A stretch of 24,058 bases of DNA from a virus. Below are positions 1,663-21,423 of the stretch, piece after piece. The translations under genes were made by a program, and so were the position numbers. Within the stretch, counting starts at the first letter, position 1, and each line of letters opens with the position of its first letter. Location: positions 1 to 24,058 of the IMG/VR virus record IMGVR_UViG_3300032265_000108. One strand, given 5' to 3'. Under the pieces are notes generated by a model. It made no database searches. It was not told where the DNA came from and was given only the letters and a program-made list of their open reading frames with translations.

Positions 1663-1670
1663 TATTTATA
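1663..1670 (-). promoter_or_regulatory. T4-type late promoter element TATAAATA
   Basis: Exact match on the minus strand to the T4 late promoter box, in the 94-base gap between two collagen-like fibre genes. It is 54 bases upstream of the GTG start, leaving room for a leader that carries AGGAG. No convincing terminator hairpin was seen in this gap. Confidence 0.75.
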
Positions 1671-3436: not shown

Positions 3437-3781
3437 TTAAATTGGGTCTGGTTTTGTTATTTGTGGTGTGAAGATAATAATACCTTCAGCTACTCTTAAT
3501 CTTTCTCCTAATGGAGATTCTATTTCAACATCATACATATATCTACCAGGTTTTACATCATTTGTACTCGTATTTGTCAAAGATACTCTAATTTGCCCAC
3601 CAGTTTGAGAAAATATAGAAGCATTAAAATTAATATGTGTTTTTGAAGCATATGACTTACGAATATATGAATCTACTGTAAAACCAGTTAAATTTAATGG
3701 TAAACCATCGGTACCTTTAACTGAAATTACAGCTCCAAAATTAGAGCCGGTATCTATATAAAAATTGGTTTGAGCTGCCAT
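3437..3781 (-). CDS. BppU-N-like phage structural protein
   Basis: This 114-aa protein starts MAAQTNFYIDTGSNFGAVIS and contains LPLNLTGFTVDSYIRKS, then GRYMYDVEI and RVAEGIIIFTPQIT near the C-terminus. The pattern is that of the small Ig-like domain in phage baseplate and fibre adaptor proteins (BppU N-terminal type), which commonly precedes fibre genes. A role joining a fibre to the baseplate is inferred from this and from the fibre genes on both sides. There is no clear Shine-Dalgarno upstream. Instead TATAAATA ends only five bases before the ATG. An 18-base gap separates it from the upstream fibre gene. Confidence 0.7.
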   Translation of the reverse strand: MAAQTNFYIDTGSNFGAVISVKGTDGLPLNLTGFTVDSYIRKSYASKTHINFNASIFSQTGGQIRVSLTNTSTNDVKPGRYMYDVEIESPLGERLRVAEGIIIFTPQITKPDPI

Positions 3782-3786
3782 TGTAT

Positions 3787-3794
3787 TATTTATA
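3787..3794 (-). promoter_or_regulatory. TATAAATA late promoter element abutting a start codon
   Basis: Exact T4 late-promoter octamer on the minus strand, in the context TATAAATAATACAATG. The spacing to the ATG is five bases, so a transcript starting the usual 6-7 bases downstream would begin at or inside the start codon. It could drive a leaderless message, serve the genes further downstream, or be a chance AT-rich match. Confidence 0.5.
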
Positions 3795-10600: not shown

Positions 10601-12824
10601 GAATATTTGCATAGTCAATAGCATATGAATCTACTGAAAGATAGCCATTGCCTGAGTGTGAGAAGTTTCTGTATACAACTAATAAGTAATCAGTATTTGC
10701 TGGAGCAGTTCCTGTTAGAACTAAATTGCCGTGATCGTATATTTCTGCGCGTTGACCATTATCAACACTATAATTTGCAGTAACATCGGTGTGTGCTACC
10801 CCGCCCCAAGCTAGAACGCCAGTATCAGGATCAATAGTAACAGAAGCTGGGTCTGTATTTCCAGTATTATAGATACCTACTCCATCAACACCTATATCAT
10901 AGATGTCTGATAAGTTAAGATTATCTTTACCGCCGACTGATGTATTTAAACCAGGTGCAAGAACTTTAATAGAATATTTAGATAAAGCTTTTTTCTTCTC
11001 GGTTTGTTGATTTACTGTAATTGATGCAATAATAGTAGCTTGACCTGCAAAACTTCCACTATTTAAATCAAATGTAGCTGATTGTGGAGAGTTTATAACA
11101 GGAATAGATAATGTAATTGATTTAGATGAAGCGCTGTCAAATCTAACAATATCACCAACAACTAGACCTGTGGAGCCAGCATTTGAAATTGATGTAATTA
11201 CAACATGATAATAAGTATCTTTAATGGTGTCTGATAACGCACCAGATCCACCATAAAATCTTTCTAGACCAGTATTTGTTTGAATAGATGCTTGGCCAGA
11301 AGAGAATGAAATTGTAGTAAATGTTCTTTGAATTGTATAATCTGTTTGAGAAGCTAATGAAGCGTCTTTAACTGTTTTAACAAATTGATTTGGTATAGGG
11401 AATACTAAACCTGGGCTATCTGAACCACCAAGGAAGGCATCACCACCAGTATTTCCACCAACTTTACTTAAGTCTGAAATATTTGCTCCAGAAAGAACTG
11501 TTGCTCCAGATCTAATAACAATAGACTCAGCATCTTTAAAATATTTACCTGAATCCATAACAATATCAAACAAGTACATTTCGTAAAATGCAGTTATGCC
11601 AGGAGTTCCTGAACTAAGTTGCAAGAATCTTACCTTAGCAGAACCAATCTTTGATGTAGCACCACTAACTGAACTTCTAGTTACATTATGAATTTCTACG
11701 GATGAATATGGATTAGTAGAAATATTAGTGCTAAATGAACCATATAAACTAGTTACATAAACATAGTTACCATATGTCATAGCAACATCAATACCAGTTA
11801 CTTGTTCATATGCGCGGGCTCTATCTAATGTAAGGAATGTTTGATTAATAGTTTGGAATTCATAACCTTTAACGTATGCTTTACCCGGATCAAGAGCAGC
11901 AGTAAATTTAGTAGCATCACCATTTACATCATTAAGGATTTGAATAGGCCAGTTTTTAACTGTGTAATCACCTGACTCATCAAAAGTTCTGCGTGCTAGT
12001 TCTTTACCAATTTCTGAATAAACAGTCTTATCTTTATTTACTACTAATGCTCCATCTACAACACGAGCAATCTCAATAAAGTTTTCTACAGTTTCATCAA
12101 GACCTTTAACTATTAATGTTAGATATGCTTTATAACGATCTGCGCCAGGCGCTGCAAAGTTTGGGGACTCTTGAGCTCTATCAAATAATGATGTGTCATT
12201 ATCAGTACCATATAACTCTTCATTTAATACTAAACCAATATTGTGTGAAGTATTATTTGCATATTTGTTTACTGGAATAGTTTGTGCTTCAAGATAAACA
12301 AATTTACCATCTACAAAGAATACACCTGAGTCAATTGAGAAACCCATAGCGTTATTAAATGCAGACGCTGAATATATAGTAGCTGTATATGCAGTACCTG
12401 AAGAAGTTGTAATATTTTCTCCAAGATTAAATGTGGTACCTGAAATAATTGATACTAAGAGAGTTTTTGGGTCGCCTGCTGCATTAAGATCTGTAACAGC
12501 TTTAACTACAGCTTGAGTCTTGCTATCTGCCCCAATAATTGTTTTACCTAGAAAGTTTGATAATTTAACAGTTTGACCAGAATATGTAGAATTAATTTTA
12601 ATTGACATTAATTGAGTATCAAATAATCTACCACCACCTAATACAATAGATCCATTTACAAATACATGCTTACCAAATTTCTTAATTTGGTCTTGTATTT
12701 GTGTTTGAAGCTGAGTTAACTCTCTAGCTTGGACAGCATATCCAGGACGGAATAAGATTCGATGATAGTTCTTGGTTTCATCAAAGTCATCGTAGTAAGG
12801 ATTGATATCGAAATTAATTGCCAT
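7623..12824 (-). CDS. Giant virion structural protein, DUF4815-like
   Basis: 1733 aa. The first 65 residues (INFDINPYYDDFDETKNYHR, ILFRPGYAVQARELTQLQTQ) are the signature of a DUF4815-type phage structural protein family. A middle stretch includes YELRDCIDFRPRK and a conserved block NIRDVQIKYIENRRYTMRDI followed by KLDKRIGNLEYYTQLSLLEK, predicted helical. An unusual tryptophan cluster lies at 918-936. The C-terminal 130 residues (QIKIVMLSSNRANTPKLRDL at the end) are a family-type beta domain. In T4-like marine phages such a protein follows gene 8 and occupies the place of T4 genes 9-12, so it is probably a baseplate-periphery or fibre-network protein; that assignment is inferred. GGAAGAG precedes the ATG, and a late promoter lies 25 bases upstream. 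Confidence 0.85.
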   Translation of the reverse strand: MAINFDINPYYDDFDETKNYHRILFRPGYAVQARELTQLQTQIQDQIKKFGKHVFVNGSIVLGGGRLFDTQLMSIKINSTYSGQTVKLSNFLGKTIIGADSKTQAVVKAVTDLNAAGDPKTLLVSIISGTTFNLGENITTSSGTAYTATIYSASAFNNAMGFSIDSGVFFVDGKFVYLEAQTIPVNKYANNTSHNIGLVLNEELYGTDNDTSLFDRAQESPNFAAPGADRYKAYLTLIVKGLDETVENFIEIARVVDGALVVNKDKTVYSEIGKELARRTFDESGDYTVKNWPIQILNDVNGDATKFTAALDPGKAYVKGYEFQTINQTFLTLDRARAYEQVTGIDVAMTYGNYVYVTSLYGSFSTNISTNPYSSVEIHNVTRSSVSGATSKIGSAKVRFLQLSSGTPGITAFYEMYLFDIVMDSGKYFKDAESIVIRSGATVLSGANISDLSKVGGNTGGDAFLGGSDSPGLVFPIPNQFVKTVKDASLASQTDYTIQRTFTTISFSSGQASIQTNTGLERFYGGSGALSDTIKDTYYHVVITSISNAGSTGLVVGDIVRFDSASSKSITLSIPVINSPQSATFDLNSGSFAGQATIIASITVNQQTEKKKALSKYSIKVLAPGLNTSVGGKDNLNLSDIYDIGVDGVGIYNTGNTDPASVTIDPDTGVLAWGGVAHTDVTANYSVDNGQRAEIYDHGNLVLTGTAPANTDYLLVVYRNFSHSGNGYLSVDSYAIDYANIPQFKDPSSGITYELRDCIDFRPRKADGGTALNNGQIPDPKTTLQADYQYYLARIDKIIATSDQQLVVKKGIPAVYPTIPTDESNGMAIYNVVIPPYTANIRDVQIKYIENRRYTMRDIGKLDKRIGNLEYYTQLSLLEKQAKDTSIPDASNFEKFKNGFVVDAFTSADIFATSATNWSQRRWGWWNAWFNGSNNWGGAATNYNENSIAQASDVDFAAAIDPFSQELRAPFEVQFSQFDTSTLTSASKTGDLVTLSYTEVTAIDQPISSTYANINPFNVLRFVGSIVLEPAFDQWVDTQYLPAVNKVVDIQLADAADIVNNTNISTNGGWRIYQGGSSTTTVATNIVGSTTSTLGTNVVDIQYVPYIRANTVLGISKLFKPKAKLYPFIENTSITSYVKPLTVIEVQNHTGTLFDDKQGVYESLSFRTGSPSGTETGTARTAIYSQPSTTDSTKRLLTVYNDAGTIAVGKYVVGLTGGGSGVVTAVTTHALGTDLIPDEFGNIGFEFQIPANTFKTGERTIRLIDNSTNDTEAQESIGETKYTAIGTLQTKQETILTTRTLQNQKTITSVSYWYDPLGQTFLVDDRANPQGFHLSSVDVYFKSKSATVPVTMEIRRTVNGYPESSRTIPFSECIVYPEHVSIQGGGTSSTNDAVQPATTFKFANPIHLTPGEYAIVLVSQSNEYQVYISEMGGTILGGTTKVDKQPYIGSLFKSQNASTWEADQNKDLKFKIKRADFVTSGTAEFNIQDPATIYDYQTLFTNVSTVLPTGTNVVWSAKAYNQDTTFDTDWAPFNVMQDINYSYIKRLAAKAGIGGTPSLRLKATLTTESTLVSPVIDAASLSIVTAYNTINNSTAGEDANAGGDALARYITKPINLAAGFEATNLCVTVDINKPAGTDVAVYYKTLPAEKNTPITDENWELMYLESAVASSLSNYDFKEHRFFPFQAFDQYGVPNNSPIQPRFNTFQIKIVMLSSNRANTPKLRDLRIIALDN

Positions 12825-12849: not shown

Positions 12850-12857
12850 TATTTATA
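12850..12857 (-). promoter_or_regulatory. T4-type late promoter element TATAAATA
   Basis: Exact late-promoter octamer on the minus strand, overlapping the stop codon of the gp8-like gene (TAA at 12853-12855). It is 25 bases upstream of the ATG of the 1733-aa gene, with GGAAGAG in between. The spacing gives a normal short leader, so this is a convincing internal promoter for the downstream fibre half of the cluster. Confidence 0.75.
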
Positions 12858-16371: not shown

Positions 16372-17895
16372 CTATGGTTTAGCGACAGTTGGTGTGTCAC
16401 TTAATGTTGTACTTGAACTTAATATGTTTCTTTCATCCCCAAAGAACGGAATGTTAACTGGTGGATTATAGAATTCATCTGGTGCCATGTAGTCTTCAGC
16501 GTCATATGGATCAATTCTAATTCTACCAAACGTATCAGATAGGTAGAAATAATCATTGGTTATAGGTTTATTTATCTGATTAAACGTGGCTTGTGAACGC
16601 CATTGTGCTAATACTTGTGAAGCCTGAACACCTGGGGTATAGGTATTTTGAATTTGATATTCACCAAATAAAGCTGTACCGGCTGGATGAAGATATGATT
16701 TAATTAAAGACTTATATTTTTCAAGCTTTTCATCCACTGTAATCAGGTAAGAATACTTCTGCCATCTATAACTATCTTGGATGAATATGTCATCATCAAG
16801 GAATCCATCATTGGAATTATAATGTCCTTGGTACTTTGCTACAGCACCAATATCAAATCTTATAACTAAATAATTTGGGTTTGATCCTTGCGAATTAATA
16901 GATTCTTGATAGAACTGTCTTAAAAATGTAGCAGCGTATGTAGGATCAGTATATTCCAAATCAGCATAATTTGGGCTTAGAATATAACCATAATCCACAT
17001 ACTCATCAATTTTAGTATCATTAGGAATAGAATAAAGCTGTGTACTATCTCGGGTTAAAGTAATTAATGAATTTGATGCTACTGTTCCGCTAGATTTTAA
17101 TAGATAAAAGTCAGTGTCATACCCATATCCAAAAGCAATAGTGGCAATATTAACAACACCACCGTTTGAGTCAACCTTTGTCACTTTTATTTTTTGTGTA
17201 ATTAATTCGCCTCTTGATATAGTTGTACCTTCAATAATATCTCCAAGCTTATAACCTACACCAGGTAATTCTACTGTATATTTTACAGTTGTAGGAATAA
17301 TAGATCCAGTTACACCAGCATAGGATAATGTGTATCCTATTTTTATATCGCCATAATAATTCTTGTTAATGAAGACTTCGTATAAGTTACCAGATACTTG
17401 TCTAATTCTATCAACAAATACTTTAATAATTACTTTTGGTCCTAGAATTGATATTCTATTTCCTACTAATTTAACTGCATCACCTGCTGATATCTCAACA
17501 AACAATGATACTTCTTGTTGCCATTTACCATCAGATACTTTAAGTACAGAATCCCATGGATATGAGATTTCAGCAACTTTTCCGTATAACAGTTTAAATA
17601 AGAATTTGTATGATGCTTCAACACCCTTTGAAACAAATAATTCTTTTATTTTTCTTAACAGTAATCTTTTATCAATATTTTCGTAATTATCACCAAAGAC
17701 ATCTAGTTCATTCTTAAAGAATTGAACAAATGAATCTAGTGTTTGATCTATATCTCTAATCTCAGTAACATTTCTTTTCTCATATTGATCTAGATATTCA
17801 TAGTACGCTTCAATAAAAGCAACAAATAAAGGATAGTCTTCCCTAGCAAATTCCGGGATTTGTTTAGATACTATAGACTTTAAATTAATTGTCAT
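16372..17895 (-). CDS. gp7: Baseplate wedge protein gp7-like (short form)
   Basis: 507 aa against about 1030 in T4. Residues 21-36 (YPLFVAFIEAYYEYLD) and 86-112 (LFVSKGVEASYKFLFKLLYG, then AEISYP) match the C-terminal third of T4 gp7, which has FEAFCEAYIQYLSDG and STKGIEASYKFLFKVLYNEE. The HPAG at 403-406 parallels T4 FVHPVGFG. So the protein corresponds to the C-terminal part of gp7 and lacks its large N-terminal domains. A GVGY near 212 and a GYGY near 256 recall the GxGY units of the gp8-like protein. gp7 bridges gp10, gp8 and gp6-gp25-gp53 in the wedge. The start overlaps the gp6 stop as TAATG, supporting coupled translation. Confidence 0.8.
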   Translation of the reverse strand: MTINLKSIVSKQIPEFAREDYPLFVAFIEAYYEYLDQYEKRNVTEIRDIDQTLDSFVQFFKNELDVFGDNYENIDKRLLLRKIKELFVSKGVEASYKFLFKLLYGKVAEISYPWDSVLKVSDGKWQQEVSLFVEISAGDAVKLVGNRISILGPKVIIKVFVDRIRQVSGNLYEVFINKNYYGDIKIGYTLSYAGVTGSIIPTTVKYTVELPGVGYKLGDIIEGTTISRGELITQKIKVTKVDSNGGVVNIATIAFGYGYDTDFYLLKSSGTVASNSLITLTRDSTQLYSIPNDTKIDEYVDYGYILSPNYADLEYTDPTYAATFLRQFYQESINSQGSNPNYLVIRFDIGAVAKYQGHYNSNDGFLDDDIFIQDSYRWQKYSYLITVDEKLEKYKSLIKSYLHPAGTALFGEYQIQNTYTPGVQASQVLAQWRSQATFNQINKPITNDYFYLSDTFGRIRIDPYDAEDYMAPDEFYNPPVNIPFFGDERNILSSSTTLSDTPTVAKP

Positions 17896-19742
17896 TAATT
17901 TCTACTTGAAGTGAATTGATAATTAGCACCACCAGCTGGATCACCAATTGTTAGTTTATCAAGTACCATAGATATATTAATATTTTCATCTGGGATAGTG
18001 ACTAATTGATTACGCACTGAAACAACATCGTTAGATTGTGGTTTAACAATTAGTTCAAAGATACCACCATTTGCTTGGTCAACACCAGTTATTTCTAACT
18101 CTGTTAATGTAACCGTTCCTGCTGTATAATCAATAGAACCAAATGTTTTATAATATGTCTTGTTATCAATATTATAGTAATACATTCTAACAACGCCCAT
18201 CTTATCACCCATCGGCATATCTTCAAGGAACATTAGTTTTTCTGGTTCACCTTGAATGTAAAATCCTGTAGATGTTAATGAATTTTCTGGAACACCTGAA
18301 TAATAGATAGGGTTTCCTAAATAGATTTTATAATTTTCATTTGTGTTATATTTTACTTCAATTTCTCTATGAAGTTTAATAGTTGTAATATTACTAATAA
18401 TAGAATCTTCGGTTGCATCTATTTGTGAAGATAGGTTTGAATGTCTAAATACACCACTAAATGAATTTAAATATGTAGTATTATAATTTTGAATAGTTTT
18501 AGTTACTAATGTTTTTAATTCAGATTCATTTTTTGATGTAAGTCTAGGATTATAATAAGCTGTAGTAGTAACTTCAAGATTAATATATTCTGGGTTTACA
18601 ATAACGGGTTGTATTGAAACAACGTTCTTTTGTTTTAGAATCTGATTTATAATAAAAGTCTTTTGGCTATCAGTTAATAGTGCTGTTGTAACAGGTTTAA
18701 TTGATAGATAAACTTTACCATAGACTGGAGGAACATTGTCTTCTCCACCCCAAGCGTTAACTGTTTCTGCTTCTGGGTATAATCTATATACTAACGCTTT
18801 ATAATCTTCAACTGTAACTGCTCTATTTTGTGCTGAATAAGCTCTAGGTGCATTATATCTAATTGAGTCAATAGTTTCAATATCAGAACCCCCAACAGCT
18901 GGAGTTAATGTAGTTACAGCAACTACACCGCCCAATATAGAAGAACCTGAGTAATTAAATACTCTTGCACCATTAGCAGCGGCTTTATTTGTAACTAAAT
19001 ATGATAGATTAACAATATTACCATTTAATAATGCTTTACCAATGACGCCATTACCAAATTGTAATTCATATAGTTGACCTTCTATTTCTTTAACAAAATA
19101 TACTTGTGATGTTCCACTAAGGTTTAATATCTCTTCTTGATTAACATACGTGTTAAATACTGAAGAAGATGCATTATCTTGTATTCTAACTTTAAGAGTA
19201 GATAGATCAACATCTGCGTTTGGAACAGTATATACCATTCCATCAGATACAGTGTATTTAAATGTTAATGGAGTACCTTGTTTAATTTGTACATTACTAA
19301 ATGTATATTTAGAATTTAGTAATTGTGTTTCAATAGCTTCTAAATTATAAAATACGTACTGTGAGCCATCAATAGTTGTTGTAAATTGACTTAGTGCAGG
19401 TAATGTCAATAAAGCTGGACTAGAACTTGTACTAGATACAACTATATTAACTGTTGCTGTTGCACATGATGCTGTATGTGGAATATACCCAATTTCTTTA
19501 GCTCTTGAAACGACTGAGGATCGTTTGCTGGCGGAATCCAAAAAGGATTCATTGACAGCTAAGTTTGTATATAGAGCGTTGTAATGGGTATTATATGCAA
19601 GTAAGTCTAAAAGTATGGAAAGTCCAGCTCCTTCAAAGTCATAATCCTTAAAGGTATCTTGACTTTGTAAGAATGTTTTTAGATTGGTCTTAATTGCATC
19701 AAAATCCAATTCAGCAGTAGTTATATTTTTGTTTGCAGCCAT
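17895..19742 (-). CDS. gp6: Baseplate wedge protein gp6
   Basis: 615 aa, close to the 660 of T4 gp6. The N-terminus has the family block DYDFEGAGLSILLDLLAYNT (34-53) followed by NALYTNLAVNESFLDSASKR (55-74) and EIGYIP. The centre carries the baseplate-J-type segment GGSDIETIDSIRYNAPRAYS (284-303), then VTVEDYKALVYRLYPEA and VYGKVYLSIKP (340-350). gp6 forms the continuous ring that ties the wedges together around the hub. Its start overlaps the gp25 stop, and its stop overlaps the gp7-like start (both TAATG), which supports stoichiometric co-translation of the three wedge proteins. Confidence is high because of the multiple motifs and the gene order. Confidence 0.93.
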   Translation of the reverse strand: MAANKNITTAELDFDAIKTNLKTFLQSQDTFKDYDFEGAGLSILLDLLAYNTHYNALYTNLAVNESFLDSASKRSSVVSRAKEIGYIPHTASCATATVNIVVSSTSSSPALLTLPALSQFTTTIDGSQYVFYNLEAIETQLLNSKYTFSNVQIKQGTPLTFKYTVSDGMVYTVPNADVDLSTLKVRIQDNASSSVFNTYVNQEEILNLSGTSQVYFVKEIEGQLYELQFGNGVIGKALLNGNIVNLSYLVTNKAAANGARVFNYSGSSILGGVVAVTTLTPAVGGSDIETIDSIRYNAPRAYSAQNRAVTVEDYKALVYRLYPEAETVNAWGGEDNVPPVYGKVYLSIKPVTTALLTDSQKTFIINQILKQKNVVSIQPVIVNPEYINLEVTTTAYYNPRLTSKNESELKTLVTKTIQNYNTTYLNSFSGVFRHSNLSSQIDATEDSIISNITTIKLHREIEVKYNTNENYKIYLGNPIYYSGVPENSLTSTGFYIQGEPEKLMFLEDMPMGDKMGVVRMYYYNIDNKTYYKTFGSIDYTAGTVTLTELEITGVDQANGGIFELIVKPQSNDVVSVRNQLVTIPDENINISMVLDKLTIGDPAGGANYQFTSSRN

Positions 19743-20134
19743 TAGCGTGTTCTCGTTAAAATAAGGTCGACAACCTGTGGTTTAGTCGTGTTTACAATTG
19801 TAAACTGTATTGAAACATATACTTCATTATTATCTGGTGAAACTGTCACTAGTACGTCATCTAATCTTACTCGAGGTTCAAATCCAATAATGGTATCAGT
19901 AATTGCTCTCTTTAGCATAATGTTTAATAAAGGAGTTGCTGGTTCAAACAGTAATCCCCTAATTTGAGATCCAATCTCTGAATGGAATGGTCTCTCATAA
20001 TTCTGTGTTAGTACTAAATTCTTTACGGAAGCTTTAATAGCATCCTCATCAAACTTACGAACGACATCCTTTGTTACTGGATGTTTAGTAAAGTTTAAAT
20101 CTAAATCTGAAAATGTTCTAGTATTTCTGGCCAT
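19742..20134 (-). CDS. gp25: Baseplate wedge protein gp25
   Basis: 130 aa, near the 132 of T4. The family signature QNYERPFHSEIGSQIRGLLF (44-63) followed by EP is intact, as is the C-terminal strand NNEVYVSIQFTIVNT. gp25 is the lysozyme-fold-named but non-enzymatic GPW/gp25 protein that seeds sheath assembly from the baseplate. There is no good Shine-Dalgarno near the ATG (only AGGGA at a long spacing). Instead TATAAATA ends four bases before it. Order PAAR-gp25-gp6-gp7 is the usual one in T4-like cyanophages. Confidence 0.93.
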   Translation of the reverse strand: MARNTRTFSDLDLNFTKHPVTKDVVRKFDEDAIKASVKNLVLTQNYERPFHSEIGSQIRGLLFEPATPLLNIMLKRAITDTIIGFEPRVRLDDVLVTVSPDNNEVYVSIQFTIVNTTKPQVVDLILTRTR

Positions 20135-20138
20135 CTAT

Positions 20139-20146
20139 TATTTATA
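20139..20146 (-). promoter_or_regulatory. TATAAATA late promoter element abutting the gp25 start
   Basis: Exact octamer on the minus strand within the 15-base gap between PAAR and gp25, in the context TATAAATAATAGATG. Only four bases separate it from the ATG, so initiation at the T4-typical distance would fall on the start codon. The same TATAAATAATA eleven-mer occurs at 3784-3794 and 1660-1670. Confidence 0.5.
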
Positions 20147-20149
20147 TCC

Positions 20150-20434
20150 CTATCCAAAGAATACGCTAGGTGATCCTTGAGCTGATACGGATCCACATGT
20201 TATTGGATCTCCTATTCTAACTGCAGCTTTACCATTAATAAACACTTTAGATGAACCCTCTTCAGCTATACCATCATGACATATAATAGTACAGCAATGA
20301 GTTACCCAGTGGTCACCTTTTCTATGTGCACCTAACCCATTAATAAACACGTTATTACTGGCTTCGTCATTAACTCTAGGTGGAAAACATCCATGGCCTG
20401 AGCAAATATCTCCTAATCTTGTAGCAGCTGCCAT
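20150..20434 (-). CDS. PAAR-motif baseplate spike tip protein (gp5.4-like)
   Basis: 94 aa. The ATG at 20432-20434 overlaps the upstream stop as TAATG, so I chose it over a longer frame that would start inside the glycine-rich gene. The sequence begins MAAATRLGDICSGHGCFPPR and has the usual two-part repeat: VFINGLGAHRKGDHWVTHC, then VFINGKAAVRIGDP and a terminal GSPSVFFG. Cysteines and histidines (C11, H14, C16, H42, H46, C47, C48, C52, H53) include the likely metal ligands of the tip. PAAR proteins sharpen the gp5-type central spike that pierces the cell envelope. The gene sits immediately before gp25. Confidence 0.92.
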   Translation of the reverse strand: MAAATRLGDICSGHGCFPPRVNDEASNNVFINGLGAHRKGDHWVTHCCTIICHDGIAEEGSSKVFINGKAAVRIGDPITCGSVSAQGSPSVFFG

Positions 20435-21423
20435 TATGCAACCGATCCATATACTGTACCTGTTGCACCCCATGTTACTGAATTTGCGTTTAGTGTAATA
20501 GCTCGGCCGCCAGTGCCGGCAGTTGCTGTAGCCGGCGTGCCAACGCCTCCGGCCGCTCCCCATCCGCCGCCTCCACCACCTGAAACCGGTCCACTTCCAG
20601 TTCCTCCAGTTCCACTAGCAGAGCCACCACCACCACCCTGAACACTAGTAGATAAAGTAGGTATTTTGCGTGCCGCTCCTCCACCACCGGCGCCGCCACC
20701 AAAGCCAGATACTTTTAGACATGTTCCCAATCCAGCTCCAACAGGGCCGCCTCCTGCACCGCCAGCACCAGGAAGAATTCTTCCACCGCCACCACCACCT
20801 ATAGTATTCAATGCACCACTTGCACCAGCCACACTAATAGCCCCTCCTGCACCGCCACTTGCACAACATCCACCTTTACCGCCTCCTGCACCACCACCAC
20901 CACCTGCCCCAGCAGAGCCACCAGCGCCACCACCGCCAGCAATATAAGAGTTATTAGTGATAGTAACTGGTTTAGCTATATTAATAGCAGGCTGTCCGGC
21001 AGTAGCACCACCACCATATCCACCTTGACCCATTATGAATCCATTATTTACTACCGCTACTGTACCTGTGAATCCTGCAGGAATATTCATTCCATAAACA
21101 GTAGCGCCAGTAGCACCATCAGCATAAATATAGACACCTGGAGATATTGTAACTGTTGCTGGACCAGTTCCAGGATAAGCTGGACTAGCGACTGTTGTCG
21201 CCCATGTTAATAGATTTAAATTAGCCTGTGGTGTTGAAATCGTACCAGTCCAGGCATTAGACTTACCATAACCATCTGCAGCAAGCCTTATAGCTCCAGT
21301 AGGAACACCATAAAGTGTTCTTACACCCGTAGCACCAAGTGATATCTGTGCAGTTGCAGTAAGGCCAAGTTCAACGTTGACGCTACCACCTAACCTAATT
21401 GATCCTGATGCTGGTAATGCCAT
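20434..21423 (-). CDS. Glycine-rich tail-tip/adhesin-like protein, copy A
   Basis: 329 aa. Residues 1-55 (MALPASGSIRLGGSVNVELG, TAQISLGATGVRTLYGVPTG, AIRLAADGYGKS) are a phage tip N-terminus almost identical to copy B upstream. Residues 56-124 form a variable beta region. Two NNGxIxGxGG-like motifs (126-134, 157-165) introduce about 130 residues of glycine runs, with CC in KGGCCASGG and a further Cys in GTCLKVSG, unusual for such sheets. The end (GGWGAAGG... NSVTWGATGTVYGSV) is of the type found in receptor-binding phage proteins. A polyglycine-II adhesin fold is inferred. The gene overlaps both neighbours by one base (TAATG), so it is in a coupled chain with the PAAR tip. Confidence 0.82.
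   Translation of the reverse strand: MALPASGSIRLGGSVNVELGLTATAQISLGATGVRTLYGVPTGAIRLAADGYGKSNAWTGTISTPQANLNLLTWATTVASPAYPGTGPATVTISPGVYIYADGATGATVYGMNIPAGFTGTVAVVNNGFIMGQGGYGGGATAGQPAINIAKPVTITNNSYIAGGGGAGGSAGAGGGGGAGGGKGGCCASGGAGGAISVAGASGALNTIGGGGGGRILPGAGGAGGGPVGAGLGTCLKVSGFGGGAGGGGAARKIPTLSTSVQGGGGGSASGTGGTGSGPVSGGGGGGWGAAGGVGTPATATAGTGGRAITLNANSVTWGATGTVYGSVA

Follow-up and report, generated by a model that had tools for sequence, protein, structure and literature searches.

Organization of the gp25 locus

The window, which is the whole 24,058-nt stretch of viral DNA analyzed here, encodes on its minus strand a PAAR tip protein, the baseplate wedge subunit gp25, and a gp6-like wedge subunit, with a putative late promoter box of the T4 type immediately ahead of gp25. 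The features of the locus, in the direction of transcription, are as follows.

20150 to 20434, minus strand: PAAR tip protein of 94 aa when translated from the ATG at 20434 (phrog_281, E 2e-35)
20139 to 20146, minus strand: putative T4-type late promoter box TATAAATA; exact match, kept before gp25 in relatives
20135 to 20138, minus strand: spacer ATAG, the four bases from box to start codon, read from the sequence (spacings of 4–6 form the sharp near peak)
20134, minus strand: predicted transcript 5′ end, at the A of the gp25 AUG, from the T at −13 and the base bias of leadered boxes
19742 to 20134, minus strand: gp25, baseplate wedge subunit, 130 aa (phrog_261, E 3e-46)
17895 to 19742, minus strand: gp6-like baseplate wedge subunit, the first downstream cistron (phrog_219, E 2e-174)

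Box, spacer, and start codon form one contiguous unit, TATAAATA-ATAG-ATG, spanning 20146 to 20132 on the minus strand of the window, and a sequence match places TATAAATAATAGATG at 20132–20146 on the same strand. Between the end of the PAAR gene (20150) and the gp25 start (20134) lie 15 bases; sequence and ORF coordinates confirm the initial annotation in placing the box four bases before the gp25 ATG within this gap. The gp6-like gene overlaps the gp25 stop by one base. The region from −18 to −4 of gp25 holds no GGAG, GAGG, or AGGA, the three motifs scored here as the Shine-Dalgarno core; it does hold AGGGA, a partial match upstream of the box that a read-through message could use. Translation of gp25 is unlikely to begin at a later codon, because the N terminus begins at the same place in window-clade members with near and with far boxes.

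The longest PAAR ORF (20150–20563) runs into the upstream gene, and the phrog_281 match covers residues 40–137 of this longer ORF. The likely PAAR start is the ATG at 20434, which overlaps the stop of the upstream gene; relatives align over the resulting 94 aa.

Exact copies of TATAAATA number four in the window against a shuffle mean of 4.26, and allowing one mismatch gives 73 boxes against 81 expected. Because this count is at chance, placement and conservation must carry the case. All four exact boxes lie on the coding strand, 4, 5, 25, and 54 nt ahead of a gene start; no exact box was found upstream of the PAAR gene within the window. Simple position counts, made post hoc with 19 gene starts that we compiled from the ORF coordinates, give P ~3e-7 for four of four boxes within 60 nt upstream of a start and P ~8e-6 for at least two of four in the 4–6 nt slots. 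The three boxes elsewhere in the window, with the gene beneath one of them, are listed below.

12850 to 12857, minus strand: leadered late box, exact match, 25 nt before the ATG at 12824
3787 to 3794, minus strand: second near-type box, exact match, 5 nt before the ATG at 3781
3437 to 3781, minus strand: tail-fibre assembly-like protein beneath the second near-type box (phrog_1084 / phrog_3304)
1663 to 1670, minus strand: leadered late box, exact match, 54 nt before the GTG at 1608, with AAGGAG ahead of the start

The wedge gene upstream of the leadered box at 12850–12857 has its stop codon inside the box, promoter and coding end overlapping there.

Conservation of the box upstream of gp25

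The window has no megablast match among INPHARED phage records, and its gp25 is 38–48% identical to its counterparts in the 60 top-ranking of 2281 phage records that contain a gp25 match, a set that includes Methylophilales, Synechococcus, and Pelagibacter phages. We collected gp25 relatives from IMG/VR as the best 80 of 219 with the window as query, the best 80 of 241 with HTVC008M, and the best 80 of 328 with Melnitz, which together with six named phages and the window amount to 247 loci. Of these, 242 were scored (four gave no ATG and one had <45 nt upstream); at L051–L055, the conserved gp25 start was used instead of an upstream ATG that the script had picked.

Across the 242 scored loci, drawn from the best 80 per query, the plain box lies 4–9 nt before the gp25 ATG in 136 and 16–30 nt upstream in 94, a C-variant box ending CTAAATA lies 6 nt before the ATG in six, and no box was found before gp25 in the remaining six, five of them from the window clade. 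The near gp25 box keeps a fixed spacing in relatives whose flanks have diverged, and the gp25 box is retained across proteins <50% identical; this conservation is the decisive evidence that the gp25 site is not a product of chance. Many loci are near-copies, and collapsing them leaves 140 unique protein-and-state entries, in which the Shine-Dalgarno core occurs in 1 of 86 near entries versus 35 of 44 far ones. A gp25 tree, built on few columns and with many open forks, needs at least eight changes among the four box states.

Three groups of loci depart from the arrangement in the window. The variant ccTAAATA, found 6 nt before the gp25 ATG at L064, L074, L075, L079, L080, and L081, recalls the a/gC box form cited for Aeromonas phage Aeh1 (PMC2988020). 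In the Melnitz-like rows (L260–L339), the box is followed by a minimal leader with AGGAG and then the ATG, at a spacing of 16–17 in nearly all rows. In part of the Mosig-like set (L227–L254), the box is positioned 7–9 nt before the gp25 ATG, with many rows lacking a Shine-Dalgarno core; a Mosig-like spacing, often 7–9, would leave a leader of 2–4 bases.

Box-to-start spacing across genes

Spacing was measured over all genes, with starts taken from a simple ORF caller at a minimum length of 60 aa for the spacing, pooled, and family counts, 40 aa for the named-phage counts and the gp55 search, and 100 aa for the host. For the all-gene spacing and family counts, 13 of 18 contigs were used whole or nearly so, and G002, G006, G007, G012, G013, Melnitz, and Mosig were represented by pieces that stop short of their ends. 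In the pooled starts, the window clade comprised 80 gp25 loci, 10 of 15 further loci (five distant ones excluded), and 14 contigs including the window; identical sequences among the pooled starts were collapsed to one, and only starts at least 70 nt from a contig end were kept.

The spacing is bimodal. In the 14 window-clade contigs, 17, 10, and 7 genes have the box at 4, 5, and 6 nt, only five have it at 7–15 nt, and a broad second peak follows. The 7-mer of the box precedes 34 starts at 3–7 nt. Of the 20 other orders of its letters, TAAATAA, which itself overlaps the box, reaches 21 in this range, and none of the remaining 19 exceeds 10. Among named phages, the box sits at a spacing of 5 in eight genes of HTVC008M (plus one at 7), six of Mosig, and three of Melnitz, and at 3 in one gene of S-PM2; T4 and Syn9 have no near genes. 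The same motif on the opposite strand occurs at 3–7 nt 0 versus 3 times in Melnitz, 0 versus 9 in HTVC008M, and 1 versus 6 in Mosig. On the strength of the permuted motifs and the opposite-strand motif, we reject a chance origin of the near spacing. Of the 17 spacing-5 genes in the three phages, nine fall within the GenBank stretches viewed (HTVC008M 5, Mosig 3, Melnitz 1), and all nine begin at the depositor's start.

Pooling the three clades yields 115 starts with the box at 3–7 nt (67, 45, and 3, the last being the Melnitz clade), 14 at 8–10 nt, 14 at 11–15 nt, and 85 at 16–20 nt. Orthologues are not independent, so families were counted once per clade, giving 35 near family units from 30 families. 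In the window and SAR11-phage clades, 9, 22, and 6 family units have spacings of 4, 5, and 6 nt, versus 0–2 at each of 10–14 nt. Near and far family units stand at 32:99 in these two clades versus 1:59 in T4 and the cyanophages (P 2e-5), the latter divided into 0:22 for T4 and 1:37 for Syn9 plus S-PM2. The near share of near-or-far units is 32/131 in both clades together and 20/60 in the SAR11-phage clade, and 13 of the 30 near families include leadered cases as well.

Start codons and Shine-Dalgarno sequences

Spacing co-varies with the start codon and with the ribosome-binding sequence. Every one of the 115 starts with a box at 3–7 nt is ATG, and only seven have a Shine-Dalgarno core; the 14 starts at 8–10 nt are likewise all ATG, with none carrying the core. 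At 16–20 nt, the core is present in 70 of 85 starts. Boxless starts are ATG in 830/1049, 585/791, and 339/478 cases in the three clades. By family unit, all members start with ATG in 35/35 near units versus 672/1082 boxless ones (P 1e-7), a comparison that is stricter for large units, and a majority of members have a Shine-Dalgarno core in 5/35 near versus 72/124 far units (P 3e-6). The near class of the 14 window-clade contigs follows the same pattern (34/34 ATG, 2/34 with the core), and gp25 of the window itself starts with ATG.

Predicted transcription start

In T4 numbering, the first T of the late box is −13, the TATAAATA box occupies −13 to −6, and the box lies about one helical turn before the RNA start (PMC2988020). 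With this T at −13, +1 is therefore the sixth base after the box. Base counts at leadered promoters, taken from one randomly drawn member per family, show that the sixth base is mostly a purine in SAR11/OM43 phages and in T4: 34/40 of the SAR11-phage clade, 24/25 of the Melnitz clade, and 17/22 in T4. In the SAR11-phage clade, purines number 13–23 of 40 at bases 1–5 and still 25–33 at bases 7–12, the high values beyond base 6 being as expected of a purine-rich leader. Cyanophages have a purine at the sixth base in 28/37 with no clear peak. Leadered boxes of the window clade are weakly biased, again without a peak (purine in 36/59 at base 5 and 39/59 at base 6), and their fifth base is C in 1/59.

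In the near class, the A of the AUG is usually the fifth to seventh base after the box, and a spacing of 5 places it exactly on the sixth. The commonest window-clade spacing, 4, places it on the fifth base, one before the canonical +1 of T4, which in the window is 20133, the U of the gp25 AUG. This one-base difference is the main uncertainty for the window site, where transcription fixed at the T4 position would begin on the U.

A probable leaderless late message for gp25

The reading that best accounts for these observations is a gp55-type late promoter that would start transcription at or within one base of the A of the gp25 AUG, producing a leaderless mRNA; we put its probability at roughly three in four. 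A gp55-dependent promoter of the T4 type would begin RNA synthesis there, and ribosomes would load on the 5′-terminal AUG without a Shine-Dalgarno sequence, reading gp25 first and then the overlapping gp6 gene and the wedge genes behind it. The initial annotation had proposed a late promoter and a leaderless gp25 transcript, a prediction that the comparison with relatives upholds. The sequence and placement of the box, its conservation, the bimodality of spacing, the restriction of near starts to ATG, the lack of a Shine-Dalgarno core, and the limited range of the layout among the phages compared are observed directly; the role of gp55, the exact 5′ end, and the translation of the leaderless message we infer. 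Across genomes, the near layout looks like a real, so far predicted, route to late phage proteins, shared by about thirty gene families in T4-like phages akin to the SAR11 phages. It also appears fairly probable that it represents a leaderless branch of the late program in SAR11 and window-clade T4-like phages, covering a quarter to a third of late-box families, with the leader gained or lost in evolution and the layout mirroring a habit of the host.

An unlikely alternative retains the late promoter and lets RNA begin inside the AUG, so that the message would serve gp6 and the later genes and gp25 would be translated from PAAR read-through. It draws on T4 numbering, which at a spacing of 4 puts +1 on the U, on the overlap of gp25 and gp6, and on the AGGGA before the box, which could help a read-through message. 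The spacing distribution argues against it: spacings <4 are nearly absent in the window and SAR11-phage clades (a single family unit at 1 nt, another at 2 nt, and no unit at 0 or 3 nt), as if the AUG must stay in the message. Six starts of the Melnitz clade at 0–1 nt are perhaps miscalled, because other members of those families mostly have the box at 15–21 nt. Moreover, every near start is ATG, and HTVC008M-like orthologues with spacings of 5–6 have the A at +1 or one base after it.

Alternatively, the host sigma-70 enzyme could read the box as a −10 element, TATAAA followed by six bases to the ATG, yielding a message that would be leaderless and not strictly late; we regard this as quite improbable. 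The spacing is the one at which −10-like hexamers peak in one SAR11 genome (see below). However, what is conserved is the longer late box, far promoters use this box too, and other orders of its letters have no comparable peak. gp55 is, in addition, present in related phages: HTVC008M, Mosig, Melnitz, Syn9, S-PM2, and the window-clade contig G002 encode a homologue, which was not found in 12 other partial contigs or in the window, a 24-kb fragment.

That there is no promoter, and the box is a chance A+T-rich sequence or a ribosome-binding element of a low-G+C genome, fits the exact box count, which equals the shuffle mean, and is nonetheless very improbable given the coding-strand placement near gene starts, the retention of the gp25 box across proteins <50% identical, the co-variation of spacing with Shine-Dalgarno sequences, and opposite-strand controls of 0, 0, and 1 versus 3, 9, and 6 in Melnitz, HTVC008M, and Mosig.

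Candidate start signals in a SAR11 genome

The G+C content of the window is 37.8%. We surveyed the first 400 kb of one SAR11 genome, G019 (AG-414-L04), where TANNNT lies 6 nt before the ATG in 37 of 329 genes, versus a mean of 13.4 per position elsewhere (Poisson P 9e-8). The excess holds for genes with an upstream gap of at least 12 nt (21/167 versus 8.4, P 2e-4) and when this cut is set at 30 nt (17/141 versus 7.3, P 1e-3). Three scrambled TANNNT controls gave no excess in these 400 kb, and exact TATAAT formed no peak there, with no occurrence at 6 nt before the ATG. The Shine-Dalgarno core is found in just 47 of 388 G019 genes and in none of the 37 with TANNNT at 6 nt. This −10-like peak is a hint of leaderless host genes in G019, and SAR11 hosts seem suited to leaderless messages, as judged from a single SAR11 genome that may not be that of the window's host.

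Comparison with known systems

HTVC008M, Mosig, Melnitz, and syn9 are all classed under Kyanoviridae in the record taxonomy. Leaderless mRNAs with a 5′-terminal AUG are known in bacteria and phages, and the gp25 message as predicted resembles them in its AUG-only start, the lack of a Shine-Dalgarno sequence, and a predicted 5′ end at the AUG. It differs from them in coming from a group of late phage genes headed by a gp55-type box, with 5′ ends that are predicted. Phage transcripts have been called often leaderless (PMC5312081). A literature search, covering few subscription papers, turned up no account of T4-like phages with leaderless late mRNAs.

T4 late promoters, served by gp55/gp33/gp45, share with the window the 8-base TATAAATA box, and the likeness extends to a gp55 homologue in the window's relatives and to leadered examples in the same genomes. 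T4-type late promoters have no conserved −35 element, and their transcription is late, coupled to replication, and dependent on gp33 and gp45. Among the T4 genes tested, however, none has the box at 3–9 nt; 22 family units have it at 14–60 nt and two at 10–13 nt. In T4 gene 25, a split Shine-Dalgarno sequence is brought together by a hairpin (PMC3014915). The same gene thus has an unusual translation start in both phages, but T4 keeps a leader, a distant Shine-Dalgarno sequence, and a hairpin, whereas ahead of gp25 of the window a leader would not fit and the Shine-Dalgarno core is absent.

Late boxes of marine cyanophages are given as NATAAATA (PMC2984593). They are the same box as that of the window and lie far from the start in 37 of 38 near-or-far family units of Syn9 and S-PM2. 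For Melnitz, 15 late promoters were listed from a search for TATAAAT near ORFs, in an account of the search that does not comment on leaders (PMC9004378), and the same kind of search was applied to cyanophages (PMC3037559); for pelagimyophages, late-promoter prediction is described as unsuccessful (PMC7029224). Syn9 transcript starts have reportedly been the subject of an earlier study.

SAR11 phages are very abundant, and a box 4–6 nt before a start codon offers a simple rule for locating late units in their genomes, one that helps to fix start codons and predicts RNA 5′ ends almost to the base. If the leaderless reading is correct, late transcription in these phages would be coupled directly to leaderless translation. 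Orthologous gp25 genes, which are near-type in some phages and carry the minimal AGGAG leader in Melnitz-like ones, would then constitute a natural experiment.

The PAAR neighbor and genes sharing the near layout

The initial annotation had ascribed the promoter to a need for many wedge copies and few PAAR tips. This purpose is not supported, because the layout is common to many unrelated morphogenesis genes and the box is not tied to PAAR. Besides gp25, the near layout stands before genes for a DNA end protector, a head closure protein, a tail-fibre assembly protein, and the terminase small subunit. Among 49 dereplicated window-clade upstreams, near gp25 boxes account for 31, of which 25 follow PAAR and six follow another ORF, defined as the longest ORF just upstream without a blastp match to PAAR. 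Far boxes account for eight; seven of them follow something other than PAAR, usually across a longer gap. A plain box is missing from 10, of which the five that follow PAAR all have the C-variant.

In the 14 window-clade contigs, the median gap to the upstream gene is 17 nt for near boxes, 37 nt for far boxes, and 1 nt for boxless genes, the short gap of near boxes following partly from how near is defined. The main use of the near layout would be in places where the upstream gene lies too close to leave space for a leader.

At three loci, the box lies four bases after the PAAR gene and is followed by an extra gene and then gp25. The extra gene, of 180–200 aa, has the box at a spacing of 4 in place of gp25 and shares one base with gp25; its coordinates, each in its own locus, are as follows.

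L021, 2129 to 2737: extra gene between the PAAR-adjacent box and gp25
L022, 3016 to 3570: extra gene between the PAAR-adjacent box and gp25
L024, 1911 to 2525: extra gene between the PAAR-adjacent box and gp25

The PAAR proteins of these three loci are 63–69% identical to that of the window over 94 aa.
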